Of a stretch of 53,267 bases of DNA, positions 12,388 through 49,010 are shown piece after piece. A program made the translations under genes and the position numbers. The notes under the pieces were generated by a model that saw only the letters and a program-made list of their open reading frames with translations, had not been told where the DNA came from and did no database searches. The stretch's first letter is position 1, and each line of letters starts with the position of its first letter. The DNA lies in contig JAFRQD010000049.1 of assembly GCA_017428785.1 (NCBI GenBank), positions 1 through 53,267 of the forward strand. The letters are read 5' to 3'. Source of the stretch: Bacteroidaceae bacterium. Lineage in GTDB: Bacteria > Bacteroidota > Bacteroidia > Bacteroidales > Bacteroidaceae.

Positions 12388-12542
12388 TGCAAAACGGAGC
12401 GTGTTTTCGGGCCGATTTCCTTGTAGAGCGTTTGCCAACTTCACAGGGGGCGATTGCAAACTTCACGTGTTAAGTTGGCAAACTTGACGTGTTAAGTTGG
12501 CAAAGTAGGCGTGTGGCGTTTGGAATCTTCTCGTGTGGAGTT
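12388..12542 (+). repeat. 22-base unit array 1 (seven units)
   Basis: Contiguous units begin at 12388, 12411, 12433, 12455, 12477, 12499 and 12521, each 22 bases, with one extra G at 12410. The pattern is TGCAAA at the start, TT or TC at 8-9, CGTG near 12-15 and GTT at the end. There is no spacer between units, so it is not a CRISPR. It lies 167 bases before the exported protein gene at 12710. Confidence 0.85.
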
Positions 12543-12675
12543 GCCTTTTGTCTCGTTTGACGGTCGGTTTTTTGTAAAGGATTTTTCACTCTTTTTTCTG
12601 TTGACGAACGATAATTTCCGTCAAGGAAAGAGATTTTTTTCACTTATTGCCATTCTGTTTTACGAAAATTATTCG

Positions 12676-12683
12676 TAACTTTG
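12676..12683 (+). promoter_or_regulatory. -7 box (TAACTTTG) for the 12710 gene
   Basis: TAACTTTG matches TAnnTTTG and lies 26 bases before the ATG at 12710. No well-placed TTTG at -33. Upstream, a GTAAAGGATTTTTCACTCTT stretch at about 12575-12594 is shared with 33543 onward. Confidence 0.6.
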
Positions 12684-12709
12684 TGGCGTAATTTAATATA
12701 ATAATGTTT

Positions 12710-15700
12710 ATGAAAAAGTACTACCTTATTCTTGTCCTGCTGTTTATGGCAGGCTTTGCATGGGCAGCAGACGACAACCTCTATTGCTGCGGCCAGAAGC
12801 AGACGAGCTTGTACAACTGGAAGTACACTCCGACGAACAACATCAATGGCGCCATCCAGATGGGCAGCATCTCCTACGACGCCGCCTCGAAGACGGTGAC
12901 GTTCGACGGCGCCTATGCCACCGTCACCGGCGACAACCGCATCTTCTACAACAAGAACGTCCCGGGCCTGAAGATTGTCTTCAAGGGATATTGCAGGCTG
13001 AGGAGCGACAAGTGCGTGTTCCGCCTCGACAAAGACACGGAAATGAAGGGTTCGACGGACAGGGTAGAGTTCATGGCCCTGGGAGACAATGCGGAATGCA
13101 TCTACTGCCCCAACGAGACCAGTCTGACCATCTCGGACTTCGCAAAATTGCGCATGACGTCAAAGTACTGGCGTGCCATAAATACCAACGGCACGGAAGT
13201 CACCATCAAAAACTCAAGAGTCTCGGCAGAAGGTGCAGACTGCGCTATCCAGAACAATAAGGGCAACGACGAAAAAGGAGATTTGTATTTGGATGGATGC
13301 TTTATCAGAGATACATGGACAGAATCCAATGGGTCTGTCGGTGGTGACCCTTATCTCTTTTCTGGCTCTATCAGCACATTCGTTGAAGTTTGGAATCAAG
13401 TCAGAGTCCACACTTCGATGGCGAAGTCTGTAATGATTATCCTTGCTGAAGATTATATTGGAGTCAAACTGAAAGGCATCGCCCTTACGAAGGGATGGTG
13501 TGAGTGTACCGACCCGACCAATCCTGCCTACGACATTGAAGACTACTACATATACGATGAATCTACAAATACCCTGACCCTGAAGAAGGATTACCGTGCC
13601 ATGACAGAAGAACAGGATTACTCGACAGATGAGAGAAATGGTATTAAAGTTTCTAAGCCAATCACAATCGATGGAGGTGGGCATTTCGTTTATGGGCGAC
13701 TTGGTATGCTGTGTCGTAGTGATGTAACACTACGCAACATTATAATTGGTGGGAATGAAGACTACGGAATAGAGATATACGTTGGTGACGCAGCCAATAA
13801 TGTTACCCTGACGTTGAAGGATAATGTAATAATCGGTGGAGTGGAAAACGCCATTTATGCTCGTCATGGGCATGGCGACGTCGTTTTCAATCCTTCACTA
13901 GGGACGACCGTACAATTGTTTCCTTGCGACAAGAACTTCAAAGTGAAGAGCACCTTCGACGACAAACCGATAAGAGTTAACTCTACAACTCTCCAAGACT
14001 GCTACGTCTCCGAACCTGCAGGCGGCGGGGTTGGCACAAGTGGAATAGAGGTTGACGGCAACACCGTCTTCTCGAAGGTTGTCGTCACAGGATATGAACC
14101 CTATGACCTTTGGGTAGGCGAGACGCAGGTAACGTCGCTTAATGCCTCCGACATCCTTGGCGACGGCGGCCACTTCAAGTACAACGCCTCCACAAAGACG
14201 CTCACCGTCAGCAATGCCACATTCGAGAACCAAAGCACAGACGATAACTATGGCGGCATCTATAATTACGGCATCGACGGCCTCACCGTCAAATTCTACG
14301 GCAAGAGCACCTTCGACACCTTTAGGAACTCCATCTTCTCAAAAAAAGACATCACCCTTGCCGGCAACGGCAGCCTTACTGCCACAGTAGGCTCATCAAC
14401 TAATGGTGGTATCTTTCTATATAAATGTACCTGTACCATCAATGGTCCGCAACTTGACTTTACCGCGCCAGAAGAGCCTATATACAGTGCCACTAACTCA
14501 ACGCTCAATGTGATGGGCAGCACTACACGACTTGCATTGCATCCAGGCGTGGGCTATCATGCCTTGCGTATGTCTGAGTTGAACATAGGCGAAGGTCTCT
14601 ACATCACAGAACCTCTCGGCGGCTACTTCGATTCCGACCTGCACAGCATCACCGTGGATGGCACAAATCCCTACAAAGGCGATGTCCTCATCAGCAGCAC
14701 CCGCTCAGAGGCTTATGACCTTTGGGTAGGCGAGACGCAGGTAACGACGTTCAATGCCTCCGACATTCTTAACGACGGCGGCCACTTCAGTTACGACGCC
14801 TCCACAAAGACGCTTACCGTCAACAATGCCACATTCGAGAACCAAAGCACAGACCAAAGATATGGCGGCATCTATAACTACGGCATCGATGGCCTCACCG
14901 TCAACTTTGTCGGCGAGAGCACCTTCAATACCTATGCGAACTCTATCTACTCAGAAGAAGACATCACCCTTGCCGGCAATGGCAGCCTTACAGCCACAGT
15001 AGGCCCGGATATTTGGTGTTGTATCCTTCTATATGACTGTACCTGCACCATCAATGGTCCGCAGTTTGACTTTACCTCAGCAGAAGAAGCTATATATGAT
15101 AACTCAAACAATTCCACGCTCAACGTGATGGGCAGCACTACACGACTTGCCTTGCATCCAGGCGAAGGTTATAGTGCCTTGCATATGTCTGCATTGAACT
15201 TAGGCGAAGGCATCTTCATCTCCGAACCACTCGGCGGCTACTTCAGTCCCGACCTGTTGAGCATCACCGTGGATGGCACAAATGCCTACAAAAGCGATGT
15301 CATCATCGAAAAAGAACAGTTACTGGGCTTCAGCATCAACGGACAGAAGATGGGTATGCACAATATGAACAATGTGCCTGGAGTCAAGAGCGGATTGGCC
15401 CACGTCGAAGTAAGCGAACCAGACGCACCAACCCTCGTGCTCGACAATGCCACACTCGACTGGAACGATGCCGACGAAGCCTTGAGCCTCAACCTGAGCA
15501 GAAACCTCACAATCAAAGTGGTGGGCAATTGCACCATCAATGCCAAAGACCATACAGGTCTCAGCCTTTCAGGAAGAGCCACCATCGAAGGCGGCGGAAC
15601 GCTGAGAATAAATGCCAAGCAGTCAGCCATCGAGACATTCGACTACGCACGCTTCACCATTCGGACAGGCACGTCGGTAATAGCGCACAGCAGCGACTCC

Positions 15701-16102
15701 TATGGCTATAATGACAGAGGCATGGAAGATGGTGCATATTGCACGATAGAGAGCGGCGCTTTGTTAGCAGCCTTCGGAGCCGAACCATACCCAACATTCC
15801 GGTTGGGCTACGGCCTTGTTCGTTTGGGCGAAGGCATCGATGTGCGCTATCCTATCGGCGCTCGGTTCTCGAACAGGCATATCTATAATGCCGACGGAAC
15901 AGAAGTGACGAACGACTGGGTTGTCATCGGCCCCAACATAGAACCAATACAAGACTTGGTAGACGGCGTGGACGAGATAGCCAACGGCAGGCAGACAACA
16001 GACAACGGATTTATCTACAATATAGCTGGCCAGCAAATGTCAAATAGTAAATTGCCTCGTGGCATCTTCATCAAGGACGGCAAGAAGGTCATGGTGAAGT
16101 AA
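12710..16102 (+). CDS. Large exported repeat protein with beta-solenoid-like repeats and C-terminal sorting-type tail
   Basis: About 1130 residues; the ATG at 12710 gives a clean signal peptide (MKKYYLILVLLFMAGFAWA, cut before ADD), and an ATG two codons earlier is equally possible. The body is rich in short strands (TLTLKDNVIIGG, LTAGNG..LTAT-like) of right-handed beta-helix type. Two tandem repeats of about 205 residues begin YDLWVGETQVT at ~464 and ~671 and are nearly identical over long stretches, showing a recent duplication. A more diverged third copy follows (~868-1080). The tail (FIYNIAGQQMS..LPRGIFIKDGKKVMVK) is of the type seen at the end of many Prevotella secreted proteins and may be a secretion or anchoring signal. 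Function unknown; surface binding is plausible. Followed by a terminator at 16135. Confidence 0.8.
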   Translation: MKKYYLILVLLFMAGFAWAADDNLYCCGQKQTSLYNWKYTPTNNINGAIQMGSISYDAASKTVTFDGAYATVTGDNRIFYNKNVPGLKIVFKGYCRLRSDKCVFRLDKDTEMKGSTDRVEFMALGDNAECIYCPNETSLTISDFAKLRMTSKYWRAINTNGTEVTIKNSRVSAEGADCAIQNNKGNDEKGDLYLDGCFIRDTWTESNGSVGGDPYLFSGSISTFVEVWNQVRVHTSMAKSVMIILAEDYIGVKLKGIALTKGWCECTDPTNPAYDIEDYYIYDESTNTLTLKKDYRAMTEEQDYSTDERNGIKVSKPITIDGGGHFVYGRLGMLCRSDVTLRNIIIGGNEDYGIEIYVGDAANNVTLTLKDNVIIGGVENAIYARHGHGDVVFNPSLGTTVQLFPCDKNFKVKSTFDDKPIRVNSTTLQDCYVSEPAGGGVGTSGIEVDGNTVFSKVVVTGYEPYDLWVGETQVTSLNASDILGDGGHFKYNASTKTLTVSNATFENQSTDDNYGGIYNYGIDGLTVKFYGKSTFDTFRNSIFSKKDITLAGNGSLTATVGSSTNGGIFLYKCTCTINGPQLDFTAPEEPIYSATNSTLNVMGSTTRLALHPGVGYHALRMSELNIGEGLYITEPLGGYFDSDLHSITVDGTNPYKGDVLISSTRSEAYDLWVGETQVTTFNASDILNDGGHFSYDASTKTLTVNNATFENQSTDQRYGGIYNYGIDGLTVNFVGESTFNTYANSIYSEEDITLAGNGSLTATVGPDIWCCILLYDCTCTINGPQFDFTSAEEAIYDNSNNSTLNVMGSTTRLALHPGEGYSALHMSALNLGEGIFISEPLGGYFSPDLLSITVDGTNAYKSDVIIEKEQLLGFSINGQKMGMHNMNNVPGVKSGLAHVEVSEPDAPTLVLDNATLDWNDADEALSLNLSRNLTIKVVGNCTINAKDHTGLSLSGRATIEGGGTLRINAKQSAIETFDYARFTIRTGTSVIAHSSDSYGYNDRGMEDGAYCTIESGALLAAFGAEPYPTFRLGYGLVRLGEGIDVRYPIGARFSNRHIYNADGTEVTNDWVVIGPNIEPIQDLVDGVDEIANGRQTTDNGFIYNIAGQQMSNSKLPRGIFIKDGKKVMVK

Positions 16103-16134
16103 CGTCACATCACAAACGAGAGACATCTATTGTT

Positions 16135-16163
16135 GCAGCAGTCAGTTTGGCTGCTGCTTTTTG
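16135..16163 (+). terminator. Intrinsic terminator after the 12710 gene
   Basis: A 9-bp stem (GCAGCAGTC 16135-16143 with GGCTGCTGC 16149-16157, one G-T pair) with a 5-base loop, followed by TTTTTG. Confidence 0.85.
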
Positions 16164-16231
16164 TTGTTTATGACAGCATATTTATTCCTTAGGAAACTTT
16201 TTCGCGCATAATATATATAATAATGTAGCAA

Positions 16232-16266
16232 TTTGTTGTCCAAAACAAAGGAAAGTGTTAACTTTG
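16232..16266 (+). promoter_or_regulatory. Promoter of the leucine operon
   Basis: TTTG at 16232-16235 and TAACTTTG at 16259-16266 form a Bacteroidetes promoter. The expected start near 16273 leaves a leader of only about 30 bases before leuA, too short for a T-box or leader-peptide attenuator, so none is called. Confidence 0.65.
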
Positions 16267-16304
16267 CGCCCCAAAAGGAATATATATATATCAAGATAAA
16301 TAAG

Positions 16305-19183: not shown

Positions 19184-19209
19184 GAATTGTGAATTAAGAA
19201 TTAAGAATT

Positions 19210-19830: not shown

Positions 19831-19832
19831 AA

Positions 19833-19894
19833 GAAGATAGAGGACGATAGTTCAGACCGTCAATGTATTGTCTTCTATCTTCGTCGCTAGCGAC
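19833..19894 (+). repeat. Hairpin-forming purine/pyrimidine repeat between leuD and cimA
   Basis: GAAGATAGAGGAC (19833-19845) pairs with GTCTTCTATCTTC (19870-19882) with one mismatch, and GTCGCTAGCGAC (19883-19894) is a perfect palindrome. It could act as a processing or partial termination site within the operon, lowering cimA relative to leuACD; no T-tract is present. Confidence 0.5.
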
Positions 19895-19936: not shown

Positions 19937-21544
19937 ATGGATAATAGAACGATAGAGATAATGGACACCACCCTTCGCGATGGTGAACAAACCAGCGGCG
20001 TCAGCTTCATGCCTCACGAGAAGCTCATGATAGCGCGTGCTTTGCTGCAAGACCTGAATGTCGATAGGATTGAGGTGGCAAGCGCTCGTGTATCGGAAGG
20101 TGAGATGGAGGCCGTGAAGAGCATCTCGCGTTGGGCGAGTCAGAATGGCAAGCTCGATAGGGTAGAGGTGCTCGGTTTTGTGGATGAGACGAAGAGCGTG
20201 GACTGGATTGTAGAGTGCGGCTGCAAGTGCATGAACCTCCTTTGCAAAGGGAGCCGCAAGCATTGTGAAGGCCAGCTGCACAAGACCCTCGAGGAGCACG
20301 TCAGCGATATCCTTCGCACGATTGACTATGCTCAAAAGCAGGGCGTCAGCGTCAATGTCTATCTCGAGGACTGGAGCAACGGCATGAAGGACAGTCCCGA
20401 TTATGTCTTTGCTTTGATGGAAGGTTTGGCAGACTTGCCCATCCAGCGTTTCATGCTTCCCGATACACTCGGCATACTTAATCCGATGGAAGTCACGGAG
20501 TTTGTAACAGAAATAGTGAACAGATACAGACCCTCTCTAACTCCCCCTCTAAGGGGAGAACAAAAAGAAAACTCCTTCCCCATAGAGGGGGAAGGGTTTG
20601 GGAAGAGGGTCTCCTTCGACTTCCATGCCCATAATGATTACGACCTCGCTATCAGCAATGTGCTTGCTGCCGTTACTGCCGGTTGTGGGGGCATCCATAC
20701 AAGCGTTAACGGCTTGGGCGAGCGGGCTGGAAACGCGCCTTTAGCCAGCGTGCAGGCCGTTCTGAAAGACCACCTTCATGTTCTCACTCATATTGACGAG
20801 AGTCGTTTGGGCGAGGTGTCTCATCTTGTGGAGAGTTATAGCGGTATTGCTATTCCGCCAAACAAACCCATTACGGGCGAGAGCGTCTTCACGCAAGTTG
20901 CTGGCGTTCATGCTGATGGCGACAACAAAGCAGGCCTTTATCAGAATGCCCTTCTGCCCGAGCGTTTCGGTCGTAAGCGTGAGTATGCGCTTGGCAAGAA
21001 CTCGGGCAAAGCAAACATATTGAAGAACCTTGAGGAGCTTGGGCTTGAGCTCTCGCCTGAGCAGACGAAGCGCGTTACTGAGCGCATTATCGAGTTGGGC
21101 GACAAGAAGGAACTCGTCACGCAGGAAGACCTTCCCTATATCGTGAGCGATGTGCTGAAGCATGGCGCTCCTGAGGAGCACGTCAAACTGCTCTCTTATG
21201 TGGTAACAACGGCTTACGGCCTCAAGCCTTTGGCAAGCGTCCGGCTCGAGGTGAATGGCGAGACCTACGAGGAGAGTGCAAAGGGAGACGGTCAGTTCGA
21301 TGCCTTTGTGCGTGCCATTCGTCACATCTACAAGAACCGCCTTGGGCGCGACTTCCCGTGGCTGACCAACTACACCGTCAGCATTCCTCCTGGAGGCCGG
21401 ACCGATGCCCTTGTGCAGACCGTCATCACTTGGAACTGGAACGACCGCATTCTTCGTACGCGAGGCCTTGATGCCGACCAGACGGAGGCAGCCATCAAGA
21501 GCACAATCAAGATGCTCAATCTCCTCGAAGACGAAAACCTTTAG
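19937..21544 (+). CDS. cimA: Citramalate synthase / LeuA-like protein
   Basis: 535 residues from [18 protein letters not shown]; the upstream in-frame start lies in the repeat and is rejected. A second LeuA-type enzyme that in Bacteroidales leu operons is assigned as (R)-citramalate synthase (pyruvate plus acetyl-CoA, the threonine-independent isoleucine route). TLRDGEQTSG, HAHNDYDLA and NGLGERAGN keep the catalytic and metal residues. The C-terminal ~150 residues are the allosteric LeuA dimer domain (ending TVSIPPGGRTDALVQTVITW). Residues ~198-225, just before the FDFHAHNDYD metal site, are encoded by a GC-rich palindromic element (20528-20612), giving an extra Pro/Gly/Lys-rich loop not expected in the family. 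The substrate could also be 2-oxoisovalerate. Confidence 0.85.
   Translation: MDNRTIEIMDTTLRDGEQTSGVSFMPHEKLMIARALLQDLNVDRIEVASARVSEGEMEAVKSISRWASQNGKLDRVEVLGFVDETKSVDWIVECGCKCMNLLCKGSRKHCEGQLHKTLEEHVSDILRTIDYAQKQGVSVNVYLEDWSNGMKDSPDYVFALMEGLADLPIQRFMLPDTLGILNPMEVTEFVTEIVNRYRPSLTPPLRGEQKENSFPIEGEGFGKRVSFDFHAHNDYDLAISNVLAAVTAGCGGIHTSVNGLGERAGNAPLASVQAVLKDHLHVLTHIDESRLGEVSHLVESYSGIAIPPNKPITGESVFTQVAGVHADGDNKAGLYQNALLPERFGRKREYALGKNSGKANILKNLEELGLELSPEQTKRVTERIIELGDKKELVTQEDLPYIVSDVLKHGAPEEHVKLLSYVVTTAYGLKPLASVRLEVNGETYEESAKGDGQFDAFVRAIRHIYKNRLGRDFPWLTNYTVSIPPGGRTDALVQTVITWNWNDRILRTRGLDADQTEAAIKSTIKMLNLLEDENL
20528..20612 (+). repeat. GC-rich palindromic element inside cimA
   Basis: AGACCCTCT at 20528-20536 is the reverse complement of AGAGGGTCT at 20604-20612, and inner arms CTCCCCCTCTAAGGGGAG and CCTTCCCCATAGAGGGGGAAGG form further hairpins. 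The same ends occur in the intergenic element at 51058-51187. The insert is open in the cimA frame. Confidence 0.75.
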
Positions 21545-21570
21545 GCCGACGCAAGTCAGCAAGGGGTGGT

Positions 21571-21724
21571 GCCAAATTAGGCGTGTTATATTTGCAAATT
21601 AGGCGTGTTATGTTTGCAAAATTCACATGTGAACTTTTCAAAATCCACTCGTGAACTTTGCGAAATCCACTCGTGAACTTTGCGAAATCCTCGCGTGAAC
21701 TTTTCCAAATCCTCGTGACGTGTT
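21571..21724 (+). repeat. 22-base unit array 2 (seven units)
   Basis: Seven contiguous 22-base units start at 21571, 21593, 21615, 21637, 21659, 21681 and 21703. Adjacent units are often nearly identical (for example 21637 and 21659), so the array has expanded locally. It lies between cimA and the exported protein gene at 21976. Bases 21725-21930 hold no gene that I can see. Confidence 0.85.
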
Positions 21725-21930
21725 TTCAGTAAGTACAAGATTGGCTCTTGTCAATCATTTAATCAACTGAAACACTTAGCCTTTCCCCCTCACTCAATCT
21801 TCCTCCTCAAAGCCTGCCGCCAAGATGAGCTCCTCAGCAGTTTCATGTTGCTGCTTTGGAGTTATTATGCAATGATAGAGCATCTTTTTGCAAAAAAATG
21901 TCAGTTTTTTTGTGAATGTGTAAATTGTTG

Positions 21931-21938
21931 TATTTTTG
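21931..21938 (+). promoter_or_regulatory. -7 box (TATTTTTG) for the 21976 gene
   Basis: TATTTTTG fits TAnnTTTG; TTTG at 21909-21912 may serve as -33. The expected start leaves a leader of about 30 bases. Confidence 0.55.
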
Positions 21939-21975
21939 TAGCAGAAATTTAATATTTTTTATATAATTAAGTGTT

Positions 21976-24900
21976 ATGAAAAAGCAATTACTTTTTTCTA
22001 TGCTTCTCCTGCTTGTGGGAGGAAGCATGAAGGCTCAATCCGTCTCAGAAGAGCAGATGGACGAGCGGTTCAACGATGGAACCAACCTACCATACGGCTG
22101 GTTTACAGAGGGTTGGACGGTTAAGGATGGTGCCGTTCAGACGGAGTCATCATCCGGCTTCGACTTCGAAGAAATGATGAACGACGAGAATGGCTTCGAC
22201 GTGAGCAAGCTTCTTGAATCTTTCATGGGCGGTGACAGCAAAGACAACTATCTGCTTACACCTCCTGTGGTGGTGGGTGAAGGCGAGACGCTTGTGTTCT
22301 CTGCCAAGAAAGGCAAGAAGGACGACTCAGGCATGAGCTTCAGTTTCGGCTCGAGCGACTCCACATTCGTTGTGGAACGTTCGGTTTACAGCCGCAATCA
22401 ATGGCTTCGCGTTGCCGACTTCACCTTGGACCTCGACACCATCTACAAGACGTTCACCATCTCCAATACCGAAGCCGGCGAATACCGCTTCCGCTTCAAG
22501 GCCGCAGGTACTGTGCTGATTGACAGCGTTGCAGGCTTCCGCATCGACAAAGAGGCTCCCGACATCTATATCATCGAGAACGATGCCCGAGCTCAGCATG
22601 TTGACTTCAGCCTTTGCTTCGAAGACAGCACACGCACGCTCAAGGTCATCAATACGGCTACAGGCACGTTGAAGTTGGACATCACCCCTGCCGACGCTAA
22701 CCTGTTCTCAGCAAGTCCAAACCAATTGGAGGTGGATGCCGCCGACTCGCTTGATGTCGACATCACCTTCCATTTCGCAGCCGGACAGCCTGGCAAGAAC
22801 GAGACACCGATTGCATTCACTCCTGTTGACGAGCGCGTATGGGGAAAGACCTTGCGTGCGACGGCTGTTGTCACACAACCCGATGTATGGGTTGAGGACT
22901 TCAATGCCAACGAACAGCCTAAAGGCTTCTTTACCGAAGGCTGGGAGTTCCACGACAATATTACGACCACCAGCGGCGGCGGCATGGCTGCCATGTTCGG
23001 CTTCGGCTCTCCCTCTTTCCTGATGACTCCCCCTCTCAAGGTTGAAAGCACCGACGAGGTATTGCTCTTCTCTGCAAAGAAAGGCAGCAGCGACGACGGC
23101 TTCGACATGGGCAGCATGTTCGGCGGCGGCTCGTCGATTGTTGTCGAGAAGTCTGTCTATGGCAGCAACAAGTGGGAGAAGTTGAGAGAGTTTACCGAAC
23201 CGCTCGATTCCGTCTACAGAACGCTTTGGGTAGGTTATGTCGAGCCAGGCGAGTATCGCTTCCGCATCATCGCCTCCGACAGCATCGTTGTGGACAGCAT
23301 CGCCGGATTCCATCTCGACAGCAACGCTCCCGACATCTATGTGCTGCACAACAACACCGCAGCCTCTGCCATCAACTACGGCATGCCGCAGGCCAACAGC
23401 ACAGAAACGTTTGCCGTAGTCAACACGGGTACGGGTTCGCTGCAAGGTGCTGCTACATGTAATAATAAGTATGACTTCGCTCTCAGCGCTGCAGACTTCG
23501 CCGTTGAAGCCGGCGACACGGCCTTCATCGATGCTACTTATCTCTTCGACGAGGAGGTATTGGGCACTCATCAGGGCATTGTCACCTTTGCGCCGACGAC
23601 GCCAGTCCTCGCTCCTCTCTCTTATCCGCTTACTGCCTACAGCACATACAATGATGCCTGGAAGGAAGACTTCGAACCGGAATACCTGCGTGAAGACGAG
23701 ACGCAGCCGATTGACCTTCCCGAAGGTTGGGAAACGACAGGCTGGGATGTTCGTTTGCCTGGTAACGAAGGTGGTATAATGGGAATGTTCAGCGGCATGA
23801 TGGGTGGCGATGCTGCTCCAAAGACTTGGATGGCCACCACAGAATCTGACGCCTACGAACTCATTACCCCGAGCTTGCAAGCCAAGAAGGGCGACGTTCT
23901 GCGCTTCGAGGCCGAGCTTGGCGGCGGCGGCATGATGGCCATGATGGGCTCGTTCATGGGCGGCGGCGCAAGCGGACAGCTTAACGTCTTCTACAGCCTC
24001 GACGACGGCAACAACTGGATATACTACAACACGTTCGTGCAGAACGGCTATAACTACTTTGTCGCTCCCTACACGGGCGTCTACAAGCTGCGCTTTACAT
24101 CTCCAAGCGCTTCGCTCGACAACTTCTACGGCCTGCGCAAGCCTCTCGAGAAGATTGCCATCTACGATGACTCTGAAAGTGATGACGTCAATGCCGAGGT
24201 GCTCGAGCAATACAACGGCCAGACCGTCAATGTCAGCTACGAGCGCACGCTCTCTGCCACTCAGAAAGAGGACGGCACTTGGGATCCTCGTGCCTTTATT
24301 GTCAGCCTGCCTTACGACTACGACTTCACAGAATATTATGATGCAGACCAAGTCAAGATTTTCAGTCTGCAGTTCAAGGAAGAATACTACAAGCAGTTCA
24401 TCTTCCTGCCGGAAGACAACTTCAACCCCAACCTCATGCGTGCAGGCAAGGCATATCTCGTTCTTGTCCTGAAGGGGCAAATCAATCTGAGTGCTACCGG
24501 AGTGAAGGTGAAGAGCGATATCATCAACGACGACAGTAATGTGGTGAACAGCTTCGAGGACTGGTACTTCAATGACACGTTCACGCCTGCCGGCAAGTGG
24601 ATGGCCAACTTCCGCAGCATCTCCGACGTGGAGGCCGACGAGAAGAACATCTTCTGCATGCGCGAGGACGGGTCTTGGGCACGCTTCAAGTCTGAGGACG
24701 GCACGGAGAAGTTCCGCATGAAGCCCTTCCGCGGCTATCTCGATGCCACGGAGTTCAGCGAAGAGCCTTCTTCTTCGCGCAAGCAAGCCGCACCTCTGCC
24801 AGGCACATACAGGACGATGTTCCAAACGACAGACCAGCAGGGTACTGCTACTGGCGAGAATGTCAGCTTCGAGAATCTTGACTTCGAGCCCATCATCCCC

Positions 24901-25065
24901 TTCATCGACGGCGGAACGGGCATCCAGCCTACCTTCCGTGTTATCGACACAGACGGCACCAACCTCTACTTCGACCTGCAAGGCCGCATGCTCAACGGCA
25001 AGTCTCTCAACGGCTTGTATATCGAGAAGCAGGGAACGGACGCCAAGAAGGTTCTCAAGCGATAG
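21976..25065 (+). CDS. Exported multi-domain adhesin-like protein (choice-of-anchor J type repeats)
   Basis: 1029 residues with signal peptide MKKQLLFSMLLLLVGGSMKAQ. Three successive jelly-roll-like domains begin ERFNDGTNLPYGW, EDFNANEQPKGFF and EDFEPEYLRED. Each has a D(Y/S)LLTPP or YELITPSL strand and an AGEYRFRF-type strand, as in cleaved-adhesin/choice-of-anchor J domains. Domains one and two are separated by abnormal-spindle-like segments (DIYI.EN...). Met/Gly-rich loops occur in each (GFDMGSMFGGGSS, GGGGMMAMMGSFMGGG). The tail (LYFDLQGRMLNGKSLNGLYI..GTDAKKVLKR) resembles the sorting tail of the 12710 protein. Probably surface-exposed; ligand unknown. It interrupts the leu cluster between cimA and leuB. 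Confidence 0.78.
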   Translation: MKKQLLFSMLLLLVGGSMKAQSVSEEQMDERFNDGTNLPYGWFTEGWTVKDGAVQTESSSGFDFEEMMNDENGFDVSKLLESFMGGDSKDNYLLTPPVVVGEGETLVFSAKKGKKDDSGMSFSFGSSDSTFVVERSVYSRNQWLRVADFTLDLDTIYKTFTISNTEAGEYRFRFKAAGTVLIDSVAGFRIDKEAPDIYIIENDARAQHVDFSLCFEDSTRTLKVINTATGTLKLDITPADANLFSASPNQLEVDAADSLDVDITFHFAAGQPGKNETPIAFTPVDERVWGKTLRATAVVTQPDVWVEDFNANEQPKGFFTEGWEFHDNITTTSGGGMAAMFGFGSPSFLMTPPLKVESTDEVLLFSAKKGSSDDGFDMGSMFGGGSSIVVEKSVYGSNKWEKLREFTEPLDSVYRTLWVGYVEPGEYRFRIIASDSIVVDSIAGFHLDSNAPDIYVLHNNTAASAINYGMPQANSTETFAVVNTGTGSLQGAATCNNKYDFALSAADFAVEAGDTAFIDATYLFDEEVLGTHQGIVTFAPTTPVLAPLSYPLTAYSTYNDAWKEDFEPEYLREDETQPIDLPEGWETTGWDVRLPGNEGGIMGMFSGMMGGDAAPKTWMATTESDAYELITPSLQAKKGDVLRFEAELGGGGMMAMMGSFMGGGASGQLNVFYSLDDGNNWIYYNTFVQNGYNYFVAPYTGVYKLRFTSPSASLDNFYGLRKPLEKIAIYDDSESDDVNAEVLEQYNGQTVNVSYERTLSATQKEDGTWDPRAFIVSLPYDYDFTEYYDADQVKIFSLQFKEEYYKQFIFLPEDNFNPNLMRAGKAYLVLVLKGQINLSATGVKVKSDIINDDSNVVNSFEDWYFNDTFTPAGKWMANFRSISDVEADEKNIFCMREDGSWARFKSEDGTEKFRMKPFRGYLDATEFSEEPSSSRKQAAPLPGTYRTMFQTTDQQGTATGENVSFENLDFEPIIPFIDGGTGIQPTFRVIDTDGTNLYFDLQGRMLNGKSLNGLYIEKQGTDAKKVLKR

Positions 25066-25116
25066 AGCCGCTCGTTTGTATTGTTGATGTCCGCTAAAAG
25101 TTGAGACATCATAAGA

Positions 25117-25160
25117 AAACTATCCGCAATGCCGAAATATAAAGGCGTTGCGGATAGTTT
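25117..25160 (+). terminator. Terminator between convergent genes
   Basis: A 17-bp stem, 25117-25133 with 25144-25160 (one G-T pair), and a 10-base loop, followed by GTTTCTG. AAA/TTT flanks on both sides make it usable in both directions. Confidence 0.8.
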
Positions 25161-25168
25161 GTTTCTGT

Positions 25169-25293
25169 AGGAACTGCTTGTCTGAGGCTATTCCTTGGTG
25201 GGGGACTGCTTGTCTGAGGCTATTCCTGGTAGGAACTGCTTGTCTGAGGCTATTCCTTGGTGGGGAACTGCTTGTCTGAGGCTATTCCTGGTA
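25169..25293. repeat. 62-bp tandem duplication overlapping the 3' end of the 25282 gene
   Basis: Two 62-base copies (25169-25230 and 25231-25292) differ by one base; each contains two ~31-base half-units with ACTGCTTGTCTGAGGCTATT. The minus-strand gene's last codons and TAG lie in the final half-unit. Confidence 0.85.
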
Positions 25294-26328
25294 GTCAGGC
25301 TCTTCCACCGTCACTTGGCATTCGGCACATACGCCGCTGCCGTCGATTGCGCGGCAGGTGATGGTGCAGGTGCCGGGGAAGAAGGCTGCAATCAGACCCT
25401 CGCTGCTGACCGACGCCACCATTTCGTCGCTGCTTTCCCAGGTCACGTCGGGATAGTAGGCATCAGCAGGCAGTACCGTGGCCGCGAGGCTTTTCGTTTC
25501 TTCGGGCAGGAGGCTGACGGACGATTCGCTCAGGATTATCTCCGAGACAAGAACGCGCTGAATCTTCCCGACGCGGACAGGCCTTACGTTCTCGCCCGTA
25601 TATCGGCGGTCGGCTCCCCAGAAGATACCGCTCCACATGTGGGCCCAATCGTAGGCATCCCTCGGAGCATCCTCTCTGAGCGAACGCGACCAGCAGGAGC
25701 CGAAGCTGTCTCGGCGGTAAATTGAGTTCCCGGACACGAACCCCGATGCCGGCAGGAATATCCAGTTGCCGTTCTTTTTGCTCGTTATCATCGTGCCGTA
25801 GAAGTCGTTGAGGTTTGTCCACTTCGAGGAGGTGAAGAATGTGTCGAGCAGTTCCTCCACTTGTGCCAGGCTGGGCATCTGCCAGTCGCTGCCCCAGTTT
25901 GCGGTCGCTGCATCGTCTTCGGGCAGGAGTTCTGTCAGGCCGTCCGTCTTGCCGTTCGAGCCGAAACTGCCGATGGTGCAGTATTTCGTCATCATGCCCG
26001 AGCCCCTGTTGAACTTGTAGTTGCTCGTATCGTAGAAGTCCTTCGGCTCTGTCTCGCCCCATGCGAAGTAGTCGCCATACTGCTCAGGATTGTCGGAGCC
26101 GATGTTGCAGGTTGCCCAAAGCGTGCCCGACGGCAGGCCGAGGTCAATCCATTCGTGGCTTTCTTCGGCAGAGGGTTCCTTTTCGTCGAAGACGATGCTG
26201 TCCAGTTCCGACACATCGCATCTGATGGTCTCGCCGTTGGTCTTGTAGAGCGTCACCTTTTGTGCCTGCGCCGTCTGCACGCCTGCCAACAGCAGGAGCA
26301 AAACTGAAAGGAAGTAGATGTGTTTCAT
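25282..26328 (-). CDS. Exported protein with DLGLPSGTLWA module and Ig-like BIG2 domain
   Basis: 348 residues with signal peptide MKHIYFLSVLLLLLAGVQTAQAQ. A short KVTLYKTNGET..CDVSELDSIVF strand segment precedes a ~190-residue module with WIDLGLPSGTLWATCNIGS, GDYFAWGETEPK, GLTELLPEDDAA and WQMPS, resembling the Fibrobacter succinogenes major paralogous domain. A BIG2 domain follows (about 262-342: SVSLLPEETKSLAATVLP, GTCTITCRA). Paralog of the 33796 protein, with one module instead of three. The C-terminus (EEPDYQE) stops inside a tandem repeat and lacks a sorting-type tail, so it may be truncated from a longer multi-module ancestor. Function unknown; surface location likely. Confidence 0.8.
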   Translation of the reverse strand: MKHIYFLSVLLLLLAGVQTAQAQKVTLYKTNGETIRCDVSELDSIVFDEKEPSAEESHEWIDLGLPSGTLWATCNIGSDNPEQYGDYFAWGETEPKDFYDTSNYKFNRGSGMMTKYCTIGSFGSNGKTDGLTELLPEDDAATANWGSDWQMPSLAQVEELLDTFFTSSKWTNLNDFYGTMITSKKNGNWIFLPASGFVSGNSIYRRDSFGSCWSRSLREDAPRDAYDWAHMWSGIFWGADRRYTGENVRPVRVGKIQRVLVSEIILSESSVSLLPEETKSLAATVLPADAYYPDVTWESSDEMVASVSSEGLIAAFFPGTCTITCRAIDGSGVCAECQVTVEEPDYQE

Positions 26329-26357
26329 AACTGTCGGGTTTTAGAGGTTTTCTGCCG

Positions 26358-26389
26358 CAAATTTAGTTTCTTTTTCGATACGAAGCAAA
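26358..26389 (-). promoter_or_regulatory. Promoter for the 25282-26328 gene
   Basis: On the minus strand TAAATTTG (26365 to 26358) and TTTG (26389 to 26386) fit the Bacteroidetes consensus with usual spacing; the start would lie about 20 bases before the ATG. Confidence 0.6.
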
Positions 26390-26484
26390 CGAAATGTCTT
26401 TTTTTTACATATCGCGCTGCTGCGTGTCCTTGTGTGTGTGTGTTGTTGTGTGCCGCGTCCGGCACTCTGTGTTTCGAATCACGG

Positions 26485-26559
26485 TGCAAAGGTACGGCGA
26501 TTTTTCTGCGCCGCCAAATTTCAGCACTCAAATTGACGCGATTTTCAGCACGAATTCGA
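26485..26559 (-). repeat. 75-base dispersed repeat with outward promoter, copy 1
   Basis: Same length and 69 of 75 bases identical (by eye) to 41035-41109. On the minus strand it contains TTTG (26518 to 26515) and TACCTTTG (26494 to 26487) at promoter spacing, pointing at the 25282-26328 gene. Confidence 0.8.
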
Positions 26560-26590
26560 ACGATTTTCTTCAACGCCTTGATTTTCAGTT

Positions 26591-26746
26591 CCGTACAACC
26601 GTACAAACCGTACAAGCGAAAAAAAGACATAGGGTGGTACCCCTATATTATATATATTAAAGAAATAATTACTTATTATATAATATATAATATTTAGCAT
26701 TCTCTCGTCTCTCAAAATCGGTTGTACGGTTTGTACGGTTGTACGG
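26591..26746. repeat. 25-bp perfect inverted repeat enclosing 106 AT-rich bases
   Basis: 26591-26615 is the exact reverse complement of 26722-26746; each arm is itself three GTACAA-type repeats. The interior contains GGTGGTACCCC and a TATATAAT-rich palindromic core. It lies between divergent genes (25282-26328 and leuB). Bases 26747-26923 hold nothing recognisable. Confidence 0.85.
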
Positions 26747-26923
26747 ATTGCAAAAGAAACCTCACAGAGTTTTTACAAATGTGCTCAAACGCTCTATTCA
26801 TGGGTGTTCCACACCCTAAGTTGGAAATGGTTCAAGGACGGGTGCACGACAAAATGTCAGTCCTCCTTCGATTGCTTCGATAAGTATTTTTCGCTTTTCA
26901 TTTTTCGTTTCCGTTTTTTTTCG

Positions 26924-26931
26924 TATCTTTG
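26924..26931 (+). promoter_or_regulatory. -7 box (TATCTTTG) for leuB
   Basis: TATCTTTG matches TAnnTTTG, 28 bases before the leuB ATG. leuB therefore has its own promoter and need not depend on the leuA promoter. Confidence 0.6.
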
Positions 26932-26959
26932 CAGACGTAATTTATAACAACAGGAAAAT

Positions 26960-28041: not shown

Positions 28042-28107
28042 CCAAATCGCGGCACGCCAGGTTTGCAAACATGGCTCGTTAAGTTCGCCATCTTGGCATG
28101 TTAACTT
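28042..28107 (+). repeat. 22-base unit array 3 (two clear units, one degenerate)
   Basis: Units at 28064-28085 and 28086-28107 fit the pattern (TGCAAAC... and CGCCATC...CATGTTAACTT); 28042-28063 fits weakly. It fills the gap between leuB and the porin gene, 25 bases before its ATG. Confidence 0.7.
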
Positions 28108-33005: not shown

Positions 33006-33116
33006 TGCAAACAAAAGCGTGCTTTGGGGCCGATTTCAGCGTGTGGCGTAGGGAAACTTCACATGCGATAATTCCAAACCTCGCGTGCGGCGTTGGCCAA
33101 CCTCGCGTGCGGCGTT
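33006..33116 (+). repeat. 22-base unit array 4 (five units)
   Basis: Units start at 33006, 33029, 33051, 33073 and 33095, with one extra G at 33028 in the same place as the extra G of array 1. The last two units are GC-rich and differ from each other only at their first few bases. Confidence 0.85.
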
Positions 33117-33177
33117 TGGTCTTTCCCTGTGCCGCGATGATAAACATCCCGTTTCTTGTCACTATTTTTGTAATATT

Positions 33178-33533
33178 GGTGTCCGAGGAAATTCGGTCTG
33201 ACTGCTTTGCTACTGAGTATAGTCAGTTTGCATATTAAGCCTGTAGGGCTATACTTTGAGTAACCGGGGGCGAAGCCCTCGGAATCAGCGGATAACATGC
33301 TACTCGCTGCCTGGAGGGCAGTACTATGAGACGCCAGTGTACTGCCTTCCAGGCAGGAGCGGGGGAGATGCTCTCTATGTTCTGTCCGAGGGCTTCGCCC
33401 CCGGTTACTAATTGTGAAGCCTTCCAGGCTTTTTTTACATCATTGCGTCCCAAGCCCATGACAATAGCTATTCATTTTAAATGCCGATGTAATCGAGGGT
33501 GTTGATGTTTATGAAATAATTTTACCGGACACC
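33178..33533. mobile_element. Candidate MITE-like insertion (about 356 bp) with terminal inverted repeats
   Basis: GGTGTCCG (33178-33185) and CGGACACC (33526-33533) are inverted ends. ACTATTTTTGTAA occurs at 33161-33173 and again at 33534-33546, directly abutting the right end, as a target duplication would; four extra bases separate it from the left end. The related site at 12.57 kb has only one copy of the TTTTTGTAAAGG target, like an empty site. The right end (ATTTTACCGGACACC) resembles ends I associate with IS4-like elements of Bacteroidetes. No transposase is encoded. Confidence 0.55.
33237..33431. repeat. Three nested inverted repeats inside the candidate MITE
   Basis: Outer arms 33237-33250 and 33417-33431, middle arms 33259-33283 and 33385-33409 (25 bp, perfect), inner arms 33307-33324 and 33339-33356 (18 bp, one mismatch). 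The RNA of either strand would fold into a long cruciform-like hairpin. Outer arms end in TTTTTT, so it may also terminate transcription rightward. Confidence 0.8.
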
Positions 33534-43636: not shown

Positions 43637-43776
43637 GTTGTAGGGCTGCGAAAGTGTAGTTATTTCTTGCAAAGTAACAAAAAAGTACAACGCCATGCAA
43701 GTGTTCAGGCAAAAAAGTGCTTGCTTTGATGCTTGATTCCTTGTTTTTTGTCCCCCAAACCTCCTCCTCGATCCAT

Positions 43777-45607: not shown

Positions 45608-45674
45608 TTGCTGTGTGACGATTTACAATATGGGATTTGTTAAGTCGAGAAGTTCTGCTCTCACTTTGCGGCTG

Positions 45675-45682
45675 CAAAATTA
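45675..45682 (-). promoter_or_regulatory. -7 box (TAATTTTG) for the MATE gene
   Basis: On the minus strand TAATTTTG (45682 to 45675) matches TAnnTTTG, about 68 bases before the MATE start. It is divergent from the promoter at 45867, with a 22-base array between them. Confidence 0.55.
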
Positions 45683-45734
45683 CGAAAAAAAGTTGAGTTC
45701 TTATGTATAATGTATAAAATAAGCGAGCTTAGTT

Positions 45735-45855
45735 GATAAACTTAGCGTGGTTAGTTCGCAAAGTTGACGTGTGATGTTCGCAAAGTTGACGTGTGATGTT
45801 TGCAAAGTTCACGTGTGATGTTTGGAAAGTTGACGCGTGATGTTTGGAAAGTTCA
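45735..45855 (+). repeat. 22-base unit array 5 (five units plus a partial)
   Basis: Units start at 45735, 45757, 45779, 45801 and 45823 with no gaps; 45757 and 45779 are identical, and 45801 and 45823 differ from them at two and three positions. A partial sixth unit (45845-45855) runs into the promoter of the 45937 gene. This is the cleanest array in the window. Confidence 0.92.
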
Positions 45856-45874
45856 ACTTTTCTTCATAATTTTG
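45843..45874 (+). promoter_or_regulatory. Promoter for the MG2 protein gene
   Basis: TTTG at 45843-45846 and TAATTTTG at 45867-45874 fit the consensus with a 24-base offset. The -33 TTTG is the junction of the last full 22-base unit and the partial unit, so the array itself supplies a promoter element. Confidence 0.65.
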
Positions 45875-45936
45875 TGTCGTCTTTTGTTACAAAACGACGC
45901 CTTGGGCGTTATATAAGAAAAGACCATACGCAAAAA

Positions 45937-48876
45937 ATGAACACAAAGGTTCTTCTCTTTCTCTGCCTGTTGCCATTCCTCGCCCATGCCGAGGAGTCGG
46001 CGCTCGAAAAGCTTGCTCAGAGGCAGGCTGCCTTTGGTCGGACCATTCCGCAGGAGAAGGTCTTCGTCCACATGGACAATACCAGCTACCAACTCGGCGA
46101 TACGATTTGGTTCACGGCATACCTTCGTCGAACCGATACGGACCGCCCTTCCGACGTGAGTGGCGTGCTCTATGTGGAACTTTATGGTCAGGAAGGCTAC
46201 ATGATAGAGCGTAAACTCATCCAAATGAAAGAGGGTCGAGGCTCTGGATTCTTTGCTTTAAACAGATACATACAATATGCTGGGTTCTATGAACTTAGGG
46301 CATACACGCGTTGGCAACTCAATTGGGGACGCTTCGAGCGCAAGCATACCGAAAAGATTAAAGAATGGTTCCCGACCAAGCGACAGGAGAAGGAGTATTT
46401 CCGCGACTATGAGAAGCTCTACAGCCGCGTGTTTCCCGTCTACGACAAGCCCCTCGAACCAGGCGAATACACACACGATATGACCCTTCGTGCCATGCGT
46501 CGCCTCTATCCCAATCCAGCTGATAATCGCAAATTGACGCTTTCTCTTTATCCGGAAGGCGGCAATCTCGTTGAAGGAATACCCTGCAGAGTGGCTTTCG
46601 AGGCCTGTTTCGACGATGGAGAATGGGCAGAAGGTTGGGTCGTTTATGATGGCGATTCAATCAAGACTAAGAATCGCGGCAGAGGATGCTTCGAGATAAC
46701 TCCGCAGAAAGGACAGGAGAAAGAGGTGATCTTCGTCAGCAAAGACGGCAAGCAAGCCAAAGCGAAACTGCCAAAACCAGAGCAGACGGGCGTTTCCCTG
46801 AAAGTGGAACAGACCGATAGCGGCTGGGTGGCTCATATCCGACATACTGCTGATTTGCAGGACGACAGCTTGGGCGTGAGCTTGATGAGAGAGGGAAAAA
46901 GTGTCAGCCCCCTCCCCGCTCCCCCTTGTGGGGAGTGCCCCCAACCCGCAATCTGGCCGCTCATTAGCACCCCCCAAATGGGGGAGCGGGGAGGGGGCTG
47001 GGCCTCTGGCGTTTACCAGCTTACCGTCTTCGACACGCAAGGCCGCATCTTTGCCGACAGACTCTTCTTTAATATAAGTAAGGAGGACTTGATGCCCACA
47101 CTCAGTATCGAGGGTCTCAAAGAGGAATACCAGCCTTACGAACCCGTCAACCTTACCTTGAAAGCGCCTCAAGGCAAGAATCAAGTGTCTTTGACGGTAA
47201 GGGACGACAACAATCGCGACTGCCTCTACGACGACTCTAACATCCTGACCGAGATGCTCCTCTCAAGCGAGATACGCGGCTTCGTGCCTCAACCTGGCTG
47301 GTATTTCGAGGCTGACGACGAGGAACATCGTTCTGCCCTCGACCTCTTGATGATGACACAAGGCTGGCGTCGCTTTGATTGGCGAAGCATGGCGGTAGCA
47401 GGGGCGTGGGACATCACACAGCCTGCCGAACGGGCTCCCATCCTGATTGGCAACACCTACAAGAATGTCATTGTCGATTTCGTGGAAGGTGAAGAGGCGG
47501 ACAACGAGAATGAGGACGATGAAGAATACCCTTTCAGCGAAGACGGAAGAGACCCTCATGAGGAAGATTACTATGAGACCAAGCCGATGGACCTGCCCGA
47601 CCTCTTCAGCAAAGGCAAGAGTAAGGCTCGAGAGGAGAAGGCATACGACAAAGCCATCAACACGAGGGATCAGAAGAAGGGAACGGAACTCAAGGTTCAT
47701 GCCGAGATAGTTGCGCTCGATGCGGAGTCTTCTTTCATCGGCGAAAGCGAGACTTACAGGAAAGGCTTCCGCATTCAGCTGCCTCCATACTACGGCTCTG
47801 CAATCGTCTTCCTCAGCGCTGCCGATACGACGAAATGGAAGAAAGGCAAGCCTTATACTTGGATACAGGCCGAACCAGACAACCTCGAGACGGACTACAT
47901 GTACTTGCCAGCGAGCCGGAAGCTAAGGCAAAAGATATTCGTGGAGCCTGCCGACTACCTCGCCCGCATCAGCTGGCCCTATCCGCGCTTCGTGAATCCT
48001 TACTCATATTACCAGAATCATCTTGCTCCCACACCAGAGAAAAGGGGCGCCAATGGCGAGTGGATAAGGCTGGACGACGAGACCATCATGAGCGAAGTGA
48101 CTGTGAAGGCTAAGCGGCGAGGCTTGAAAAAGTTCGACGACACTTGGCCCATTTTTGCCATCGATGCAGAGGAGGCTAACAACATAGCACAAGATATTGG
48201 ATTGGGCTTTATGCAGGTCTATACGGCGGACTTCGGTGTCGGCGTTATTGACAGGAAATATGGGGAAGGTCAGGAGCCAACCTTCGAGACCCGCAAAGGA
48301 ATGGGAAGGACACGAAGAATGCTTATGGCCATGCGGGTCGACTCGATTCCCTCTGATTCCATGTATGCAAGGAAGTATCTCTCCTCGTTTTCCTTAAATC
48401 AAGAAGGCAGTATGGAACTCTCGCCAGGCGAGAAGCTTGAGTACGAGGGCAATGGCGTCTGGGATATGTATGTGCTTTACTCTGATTACAGCCCTCGACA
48501 GTATGGCAACGAAATGTATTACGGCAGCAACGAGCCCAAGACGAAGCTTGTTCAATATCCTTTCCCTGACGGCTCGCGACGATTGACTTACCGCGACCGC
48601 CGCTATGTAATACCTGGCTTTGCCTATCCGGCAGAGTTCTATTCCCCCGATTACAGCAAGCAAGTTCCCTCGGAAGACAAGAAAGACTATCGCCGTACAC
48701 TCTATTGGAACCCCAACCTCAAGCTGAACAATGAAGGAGAGGCAGAAATCACGTTCTTCAACAATAGCCGCATCACCAGGCTGTCTGTTGATGCAGAAGG
48801 ACAGGCTTCAGACGGCACTTTGCTCTGGAACGGACAGCACGCCGACAAGAAGCGCAACCTGCTTCCACAAGAGTAA
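45937..48876 (+). CDS. Exported MG2 (alpha-2-macroglobulin-like) domain protein
   Basis: 979 residues from MNTKVLLFLCLLPFLAHA; earlier in-frame starts precede the promoter. The N-terminal domain EKVFVHMDNTSYQLGDTIWF..YLR and YAGFYELRAYTRW is the MG2 type found in large Bacteroidetes exported proteins. Further beta domains follow (LTLSLYPEGGNLVEG, VNLTLKAPQGKNQVSLTVRD). Residues ~530-570 are an acidic Glu/Asp-rich stretch, and the C-terminal region contains NPNLKLNNEGEAEITFFNNS, a strand pattern near the end of such proteins. Residues ~323-355 (SPLPAPPCGECPQP... GERGGGW) are encoded by a 96-bp palindrome (46905-47000) and add two cysteines. No thioester motif is seen, so protease trapping is not implied. 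Confidence 0.8.
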   Translation: MNTKVLLFLCLLPFLAHAEESALEKLAQRQAAFGRTIPQEKVFVHMDNTSYQLGDTIWFTAYLRRTDTDRPSDVSGVLYVELYGQEGYMIERKLIQMKEGRGSGFFALNRYIQYAGFYELRAYTRWQLNWGRFERKHTEKIKEWFPTKRQEKEYFRDYEKLYSRVFPVYDKPLEPGEYTHDMTLRAMRRLYPNPADNRKLTLSLYPEGGNLVEGIPCRVAFEACFDDGEWAEGWVVYDGDSIKTKNRGRGCFEITPQKGQEKEVIFVSKDGKQAKAKLPKPEQTGVSLKVEQTDSGWVAHIRHTADLQDDSLGVSLMREGKSVSPLPAPPCGECPQPAIWPLISTPQMGERGGGWASGVYQLTVFDTQGRIFADRLFFNISKEDLMPTLSIEGLKEEYQPYEPVNLTLKAPQGKNQVSLTVRDDNNRDCLYDDSNILTEMLLSSEIRGFVPQPGWYFEADDEEHRSALDLLMMTQGWRRFDWRSMAVAGAWDITQPAERAPILIGNTYKNVIVDFVEGEEADNENEDDEEYPFSEDGRDPHEEDYYETKPMDLPDLFSKGKSKAREEKAYDKAINTRDQKKGTELKVHAEIVALDAESSFIGESETYRKGFRIQLPPYYGSAIVFLSAADTTKWKKGKPYTWIQAEPDNLETDYMYLPASRKLRQKIFVEPADYLARISWPYPRFVNPYSYYQNHLAPTPEKRGANGEWIRLDDETIMSEVTVKAKRRGLKKFDDTWPIFAIDAEEANNIAQDIGLGFMQVYTADFGVGVIDRKYGEGQEPTFETRKGMGRTRRMLMAMRVDSIPSDSMYARKYLSSFSLNQEGSMELSPGEKLEYEGNGVWDMYVLYSDYSPRQYGNEMYYGSNEPKTKLVQYPFPDGSRRLTYRDRRYVIPGFAYPAEFYSPDYSKQVPSEDKKDYRRTLYWNPNLKLNNEGEAEITFFNNSRITRLSVDAEGQASDGTLLWNGQHADKKRNLLPQE
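46905..47000 (+). repeat. GC-rich palindromic element inside the MG2 gene
   Basis: 46905-46925 is the exact reverse complement of 46980-47000 (21 bp); CTCCCCCTTGTGGGGAG makes an inner hairpin. It is 96 bases long, a multiple of three, and open in the gene's frame. Confidence 0.85.
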
Positions 48877-48922
48877 TAAACAGGTGAGCCATTCCCCTTT
48901 CTTATACCCCTCAGAGAGGCTT

Positions 48923-49010
48923 TGCAAACGCCGCGTGCGGCGATGGCAATCCCCGGCTGCGGCGATGGCAATCCCCGGCTGCGGCGTTGGGCATTTCCGC
49001 AGGCGGCGTT
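48923..49010 (+). repeat. 22-base unit array 6 (four GC-rich units)
   Basis: Units start at 48923, 48945, 48967 and 48989. The middle two differ only at one base near the end. This array is far richer in G+C than arrays 2 and 5 yet keeps the 22-base period and the (T/G)G(C/G) start and GCGTT/GCGAT end. Confidence 0.85.

Follow-up and report, generated by a model that had tools for sequence, protein, structure and literature searches.

Intergenic arrays of near-palindromic units with a rigid 22-bp period in an uncultured Bacteroidaceae genome and its relatives

Results

Arrays with a 22-bp period at the locus

The contig JAFRQD010000049.1 of a Bacteroidaceae bacterium (53,267 bp, analysed at its full length and referred to here as the window) carries tandem arrays of 22-bp units in the gaps around genes that include leuB and a CimA/LeuA-like gene. 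The source genome (G000, assembly GCA_017428785.1) comprises 2.98 Mb in 71 contigs and is 84% complete. LeuA of the window is 88-100% identical to the proteins of 32 loci among the matches listed (L051-L082), whose hosts are uncultured bins of the Prevotellaceae, Bacteroidaceae or Bacteroidales, many of them derived from the rumen (e.g. RUG606 and UBA711). A first-pass annotation had described six arrays and proposed that they serve as operators of exported-protein genes. The observation stands, and on a larger scale than was then described, whereas the operator reading fails as stated.

Among lags from 10 to 39, the best was 22 in all six stretches, bearing out the exact 22-base period originally reported. 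Identity at lag 22 was 0.59 for 12388-12542, 0.80 for 21571-21724, 0.61 for 28042-28107, 0.54 for 33006-33116, 0.84 for 45735-45855 and 0.80 for 48923-49010; the mean for shuffled sequence was 0.24-0.28, and for each stretch 0 of 2000 shuffles reached the observed value. With an array threshold of 70% identity at the lag over 44 positions (arrays containing N being excluded generally), the window holds five arrays with period 22 and 0-1 at each other period between 15 and 30, and 200 dinucleotide shuffles of the window gave no array at period 22 above this threshold. Neighbouring units had been called near identical within every array, which applies to the three with a lag-22 identity of at least 0.80 and not to the other three (0.54-0.61). 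Local homogenisation of units with retention of the period is supported.

Array direction is only weakly defined because the units are near-palindromic. The array at 12425-12538 mixes TTGCAAAC and CACGTG dyads and occupies a divergent gap (-/+), 490 bp and 171 bp from its flanking called genes; the stretch before it (12388-12424), once taken as its start, is degenerate. At 21569-21719, two unit types are joined in phase, AATTAGGCGTGTTATATTTGCA followed by AATCCACTCGTGAACTTTGCGA, and the array begins 24 bp past the stop of the CimA/LeuA-like gene (19961-21544). The feature at 28042-28107, 3 bp past the leuB stop, is made up of roughly three degenerate units and stays below the threshold; in relative L051 no repeat of this kind was seen at that site. 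The first part of the array at 33006 is likewise degenerate and the portion at 33054-33120 passes, with GC-rich dyads in a codirectional gap, 254 bp past the upstream stop and 669 bp ahead of the next start. An array of GCAAAGTTGACGTGTGATGTTC units lies in a divergent gap at 45720-45857, slightly beyond the limits first assigned to it. Finally, the element at 48922-49014 begins 45 bp past the stop of a 979-aa gene, contains four dyads of the type AAACGCC...GGCGTTT and has flank dyads at ~49022 and ~48912. It belongs to a GC-rich family, termed family A below; the degenerate core thought to be common to all six arrays is not general.

Abundance and spread among relatives

Arrays were counted in an 833-kb sample of G000 that includes the window and represents 28% of the genome. 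There were 106 arrays with period 22, or 127 per Mb, and only 0-12 at each period over 19-21 and 23-25 (3 at 20, 12 at 21, 0 at 23 and 6 at 24), the 21-bp class including AT-rich 7-bp repeats like those of the window. Most of the genomes compared are assemblies or incomplete bins. Eight relatives contain 30-150 arrays per Mb; samples of 20-80 kb each from G007, G011, G017 and G018 contained none, and 240 kb of sequence from other families within the order gave no period-22 array (N-containing arrays left out).

The arrays of relatives differ widely in sequence (e.g. TTTCCCACTGGTGGGAAA, GTTTCTGCTGCAGAAAC, TTACCAACGCTTGGTAA, TAAGACGCGCGTCTTA and GTTCCAATGCTTGGAAC), and several unrelated cores coexist within G000 itself. 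A CGTG x3 pattern gave 103 and 141 overlapping matches on the two contig strands, so that the uniform plus orientation seen in the window does not extend to the genome. The reversed-pattern control matched 43 and 78 times, probably within near-palindromic arrays. This pattern was rejected as a genus-wide probe: it is too specific in sequence, relatives using other palindromes, and its reversed control matches too. Family A is represented by at least 71 matches in G000 and at least 71 in G069 (71 candidates were scored per genome, hence a floor), and no match was found in 48 of 60 other congeners at an E-value of 1e-4 with stricter filters.

Units are palindromic and are assembled into blocks

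Reverse-complement symmetry of at least 0.72 was found in 49% of G000 unit consensuses and in 3% of shuffles, and mean unit symmetry exceeded that of shuffles in all eight other array-bearing genomes. The 22-bp unit consists of two facing half-sites and two short spacers summing to 22, such that dyad centres recur approximately every 11 bp. The first-pass annotation had equated 22 bp with two helical turns, placing every core on one face of the DNA. B-DNA has 10.5 bp per turn and A-form 11, so that a unit spans 2.1 turns of B-DNA and drifts by ~34 degrees; 22 bp fits A-form better.

Arrays were assigned to families A, B, C and X from motif counts, X being a mixture of AT-rich 7-mer arrays and unlabelled true arrays. 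Family A copies were counted as dyad chains, a regular expression for the end motifs having captured only 4 copies. The sample yielded 44 chains with three or more dyads, of which 40 have exactly four, three have three and one has five. The family thus forms a dispersed block of ~86 nt with terminal inverted repeats (typical start AAAACGCC, typical end GGCGTTTT), and no long leader or tail was seen. Further dyads recur around the block at distances of 11 bp (z 12) and 22 bp (z 8). A flank dyad one period out (at least 5 of 7 pairs) is present at 24 of 86 ends, often as CCCC...GGGG, whereas nine more distant windows gave 3-15 of 86. Family B (TCATGA or ACATGT dyads) yielded 13 chains of at least three dyads, none exceeding three, and these are flanked at +22.0 by dyads of different sequence (z 8.1). 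Because the flank dyads of families A and B are in phase, the lattice in these families crosses joints between unlike sequences. Beyond arrays, outer inverted repeats of at least 7 were modestly enriched (12 of 55, compared with 2 of 55 after shuffling). It is the rigidity of the 22-bp spacing across unrelated palindromes and mosaic joints that merits attention.

Arrays lie mainly behind genes

Genes were called with a purpose-written script, and edge arrays and those within open reading frames (ORFs) were excluded from the placement counts; in the relatives' placement and wobble analyses, L114 (N runs), L051 and AT-rich arrays (>78%) were also excluded, and L054, grouped there with the named loci, belongs to G042. 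Only 1 of 106 arrays in the G000 sample and 1 of 94 in relatives lies inside a called ORF. Considering gaps of at least 100 bp in G000, arrays are present in 24 of 46 convergent, 50 of 156 codirectional and 18 of 62 divergent gaps. Within codirectional gaps, 41 of 46 family A, B and C arrays are closer to the upstream stop than to the downstream start (Wilcoxon p 4e-5), a count that leaves out family X (seven codirectional arrays, four closer to the stop). In family A this applies to 25 of 26 arrays; the median distance is 44.5 bp to the stop and 192.5 bp to the following start, and orientation relative to the codirectional gene is mixed (16 with, 10 against). In relatives, 32 of 40 codirectional arrays, many of unrelated sequence, are closer to the stop, and convergent gaps hold 25 of 85 placed arrays while making up 100 of 672 gaps. 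In one relative, G003 (L031-L040), 7 of 9 arrays lie in convergent gaps. Placement is thus a bias away from 5′ regions and not a strict rule, and tolerance alone could produce it.

Arrays in shared gaps differ in sequence and unit number

Comparison of related genomes revealed changes in array content. L051 and L054, whose LeuA proteins are near-identical, differ upstream of leuA by 143 bp holding an array. G041 and G042 are 95-98% identical across much of one region; of ten G042 arrays, seven could be placed by both flanks. Among the placed arrays, several have hardly changed; one site shows a 67-bp difference (~3 units of 22 bp, of two kinds), and at another G041 array gap the G042 content is quite different. 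A different contig has two more sites with conserved flanks at which most units share the same changes.

In G069 (~80% identity to G000), family A is found in the shared gap for 4 of 6 gaps with a G000 array, and one of the remaining gaps contains an AT-rich repeat. At three aligned G000/G069 sites of L164, two elements are in opposite orientation; such in-place inversion would be expected from gene conversion between near-palindromic ends, or from re-insertion. One module is 11 rather than 12 bases long in 5 of the 7 G069 copies present in the stretches examined, compared with 0 of 7 G000 copies (L164, L024). Between G000 and G041/G042, two shared gaps hold arrays of different families. Given a G000 array, the shared gap was occupied in G069 (4/6), G042 (2/2) and G041 (1/2; Fisher p 0.006, 0.02 and 0.22, respectively), whereas none of 26 gaps without a G000 array has a relative's array; in this comparison G041 and G042 share a gap and gap length is uncontrolled.

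Other repeats and insertions in the window

The window contains repeats of other kinds. A large imperfect palindrome (CCGGGGGCGAAGCCCTCGG...CCGAGGGCTTCGCCCCCGG) lies at ~33260-33408, between the 33054 array and a Big_2 gene. Relative to L051, the CimA/LeuA-like gene has a palindromic in-frame insertion of ~75 bp at ~20505-20612 (CTCCCCCTCTAAGGGGAG...), a position at which L053 has another short repeat. Between this gene and leuB, 21545-26957 (~5.4 kb) holds an array, a gene for a 1029-aa exported-like protein and a minus-strand exported-like gene; in L051 the cimA-like gene and leuB are only ~20 bp apart. A 62-bp tandem repeat of 32-bp subunits (GGAACTGCTTGTCTGAGGCTATTCCTTGGTGG) follows the 1029-aa gene at 25167-25294. 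AT-rich 7-bp arrays (TTCAATC, TTAAGAA and similar) occur at 4644, 8032, 11012, 12127, 19178, 29920, 36690 and 50335 and constitute a second repeat habit, separate from the 22-bp arrays; 8-bp arrays of AAAAGGTG or GTGAAAAG occur at 10947, 11584 and 52050.

Discussion

Blocks of near-fixed size are dispersed through the genome and sites stay occupied while their sequence is swapped; the arrays are therefore best understood as spreading palindromic elements with concerted evolution. We consider it probable that they are extragenic palindromic elements of the BIME/BrickBuilt kind (bacterial interspersed mosaic elements and the BrickBuilt repeats of Porphyromonas gingivalis), specific to lineages within an uncultured rumen clade of Prevotellaceae/Bacteroidaceae and evolving in concert. 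The 22-bp arrays form one part of a large stock of intergenic palindromic repeats; they have the look of spreading, fast-changing sequences and not of a switch for exported-protein genes. Each array is a lattice of short dyads. According to this model, palindromic blocks would spread through the genome and come to rest behind genes, where they do least harm, and unequal exchange, gene conversion or template switching at hairpins would homogenise them. In the weakest step, the transcript behind a gene could form a hairpin that bounds or protects the mRNA end.

Family A elements are predicted to fold as single strands (mean z -3.84; 24 of 44 below -3, 20 shuffles each), and the signal is weaker in family B (3 of 12 below -3) and family C (13 of 29). 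An RNA stem would give an excess of G-T over A-C on the sense strand, and G000 shows one (116 vs 70 positions, p 0.0009, although positions are not independent; 26 vs 17 arrays). A search of the window, L172 and L164 against Rfam gave no match above the gathering score. 

A number of results weigh against the interpretation as spreading elements with a possible RNA function. Covariation in family A is almost nil, with two-sided change in 1 of 22 pairs, and the G-T excess is not clear in relatives (130 vs 104 positions; 21 vs 17 arrays). Because of these two results an RNA role is only plausible, and selection at the RNA level is disfavoured. Few arrays carry a simple terminator: for 50 gene ends lying within 300 bp of a family A array, one was found in or just after the array in 12 cases and before it in 10 (2 of them both), and with 30 having neither, intrinsic termination as the sole role is unsupported. 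Simple terminators lie within 250 bp of the stop at 30 of 98 gene ends that border a gap with an array and at 35 of 150 that do not. No target-site duplication was seen, the k-mers shared by the ends of 36 family A elements being at shuffle level (k 4-6), which removes support for insertion as a miniature inverted-repeat transposable element (MITE) with target duplication. No mobilising enzyme was found for the arrays in a search for Y1 transposases in 25 congeners; G005, G008, G018 and G020, all rich in the CGTG x3 pattern, have no Y1 match, an absence that counts weakly in incomplete bins. Family C has no in-phase flank dyads and is an exception to the 3′ bias, with 11 of 29 placed arrays in divergent gaps, and in relatives divergent gaps are occupied at background (20 of 85 arrays, 166 of 672 gaps) rather than avoided.

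The nearest described system that we found is BrickBuilt, a MITE/minisatellite with one described family, spacer-less 23-nt units, 19 elements per genome, a leader and tail of up to ~300 nt and terminal inverted repeats (PMC4596501). It shares with the arrays a Bacteroidales host, short spacer-less tandem repeats of imperfect units, a location that in BrickBuilt is always intergenic, predicted long stem-loops, variation in unit number, in BrickBuilt between strains, and, in family A, terminal inverted repeats (PMC4596501). Unlike BrickBuilt, the arrays have a period of 22 bp (none at 23 in 833 kb), number hundreds per genome by extrapolation, fall into several families per genome that differ across the genus, and form in-phase mosaics. 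BOX and ERIC are also intergenic imperfect palindromes; they belong to other clades and have longer units, BOX with an internal repeated module. Repetitive extragenic palindromic (REP) elements and BIMEs bind gyrase, integration host factor or Pol I. They are described as high-copy extragenic palindromes, regularly spaced in alternating orientation and mostly downstream of coding regions, some being species-specific (PMC3733652, PMC2817692). The arrays share their high-copy extragenic palindromy and mainly downstream placement, family C less so, but have 22-bp units with dyads approximately every 11 bp, family A ends without a GTAG/CGTC tag and no consistent REP-associated tyrosine transposase (RAYT). 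The open literature that was searched contained no description of these arrays, only the BrickBuilt and REP papers being relevant, and most subscription papers lay outside the search. In kind the arrays resemble BIMEs and BrickBuilt; we would file them as working like both and as members of neither.

The alternative that fares best is that the arrays are functionless minisatellites, hairpin-prone 22-bp repeats produced by slippage and template switching, with a placement that reflects tolerance. The 67-bp difference between close species, the coordinated changes across most units at two loci and the near absence of covariation all agree with this account, and purifying selection on promoters would also leave a 3′ bias. 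However, slippage alone does not make the near-fixed-size blocks that families A and B form at many loci, unlike dyads adjoin in phase in both families, and the sample has its arrays at a period of 22 and not one at 23, which also counts against this account. We regard neutrality as a possible account, if a doubtful one.

It is also conceivable, though unlikely, that the 22-bp spacing and not the sequence is selected, and that a clade-specific machine, either a structure-reading protein or an enzyme copying palindromes in fixed 22-nt steps, builds and rewrites the lattices, so that sites persist over long periods while their sequence is swapped, inverted and homogenised. A narrower proposal appears quite unlikely, in which a nucleoid protein or a structure-specific protein peculiar to the clade recognises the geometry of dyads every 11 or 22 bp and leaves sequence free to drift. 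The spacing held across unrelated palindromes and mosaic joints argues for such a reader, as does the occupancy of shared gaps given a G000 array. However, no reader is required if the period is inherited, gap length is uncontrolled in the comparison of orthologous gaps, and the lattice does not continue in phase beyond family C arrays.

That a DNA-binding protein oligomerises along the repeats to control the downstream exported-protein gene, as first proposed, is improbable. The phasing of the units is regular, and all six genes that follow the arrays in the window have N-termini that look signal-peptide-like by eye, although a crude rule flags fewer. By this rule, signal-peptide-like genes follow 24 of 79 array gaps and 27 of 180 gaps without an array (window excluded; gap-length-stratified permutation p 0.0056), or 28 of 86 and 29 of 194 with the window included (p 0.0008). 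BldC provides a precedent, polymerising head to tail on short direct repeats (AATTXXXX(C)) in promoters (PMC5859096). The arrays here, by comparison, are palindromic and mostly 3′ of genes, occupying more than half of the convergent gaps. While it is true that none precedes leuA or leuB, three begin shortly after a gene ends: 3 bp past the leuB stop, 24 bp past that of the CimA/LeuA-like gene and 45 bp past that of the 979-aa gene. Moreover, the excess before signal-peptide genes varies by family: family C, which was assigned 3 of the 5 arrays detected in the window, lacks it elsewhere (4 of 30), yet it is present in the 3′-end family A (12 of 32; family B 4 of 13, family X 5 of 9). Genes whose 3′ end faces an array show no excess (9/50 vs 26/106 codirectional; 10/48 vs 9/44 convergent). 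Unrelated cores in one genome are hard to square with one sequence-specific protein, and the array in a relative's shared gap can belong to another family. The association with signal peptides is real but mild, inconsistent between families and measured with a crude predictor, and a common operator does not account for it. Operators of exported genes are rejected as the main account because of array placement and the heterogeneity of the families.

Mobilisation as classical REP/BIME elements by a RAYT (Y1 transposase) is very improbable: the arrays are palindromic, extragenic, high-copy and behind genes, as REPs are described to be (PMC3733652), but neither GTAG nor CGTC tags are enriched at the ends of family A (4 and 3 in 88 flanks, ~9 expected). 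Of 25 congeners, 7 have Y1 matches, and the single match in G000 is flanked by other palindromes. These (GCCCTGAAAGGGC and CCCAGGGCAACGCCCTGGG; L172 11500-12800) resemble in style the CCCC...GGGG flank dyads of family A and offer a lead to a RAYT link.

A density of 127 arrays per Mb with one rigid period and many unrelated palindromes is unexpected from the REP and BrickBuilt descriptions consulted. If the spacing is constrained, this group of rumen bacteria would possess a new reader or writer of DNA; if the period is only inherited, the arrays would offer a naturally occurring test case for concerted evolution and for turnover driven by hairpins, in which close species, 95-98% identical in places, can be compared. 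In both cases the assembly and annotation of these genomes are affected, and tests are needed before any array is called an operator.

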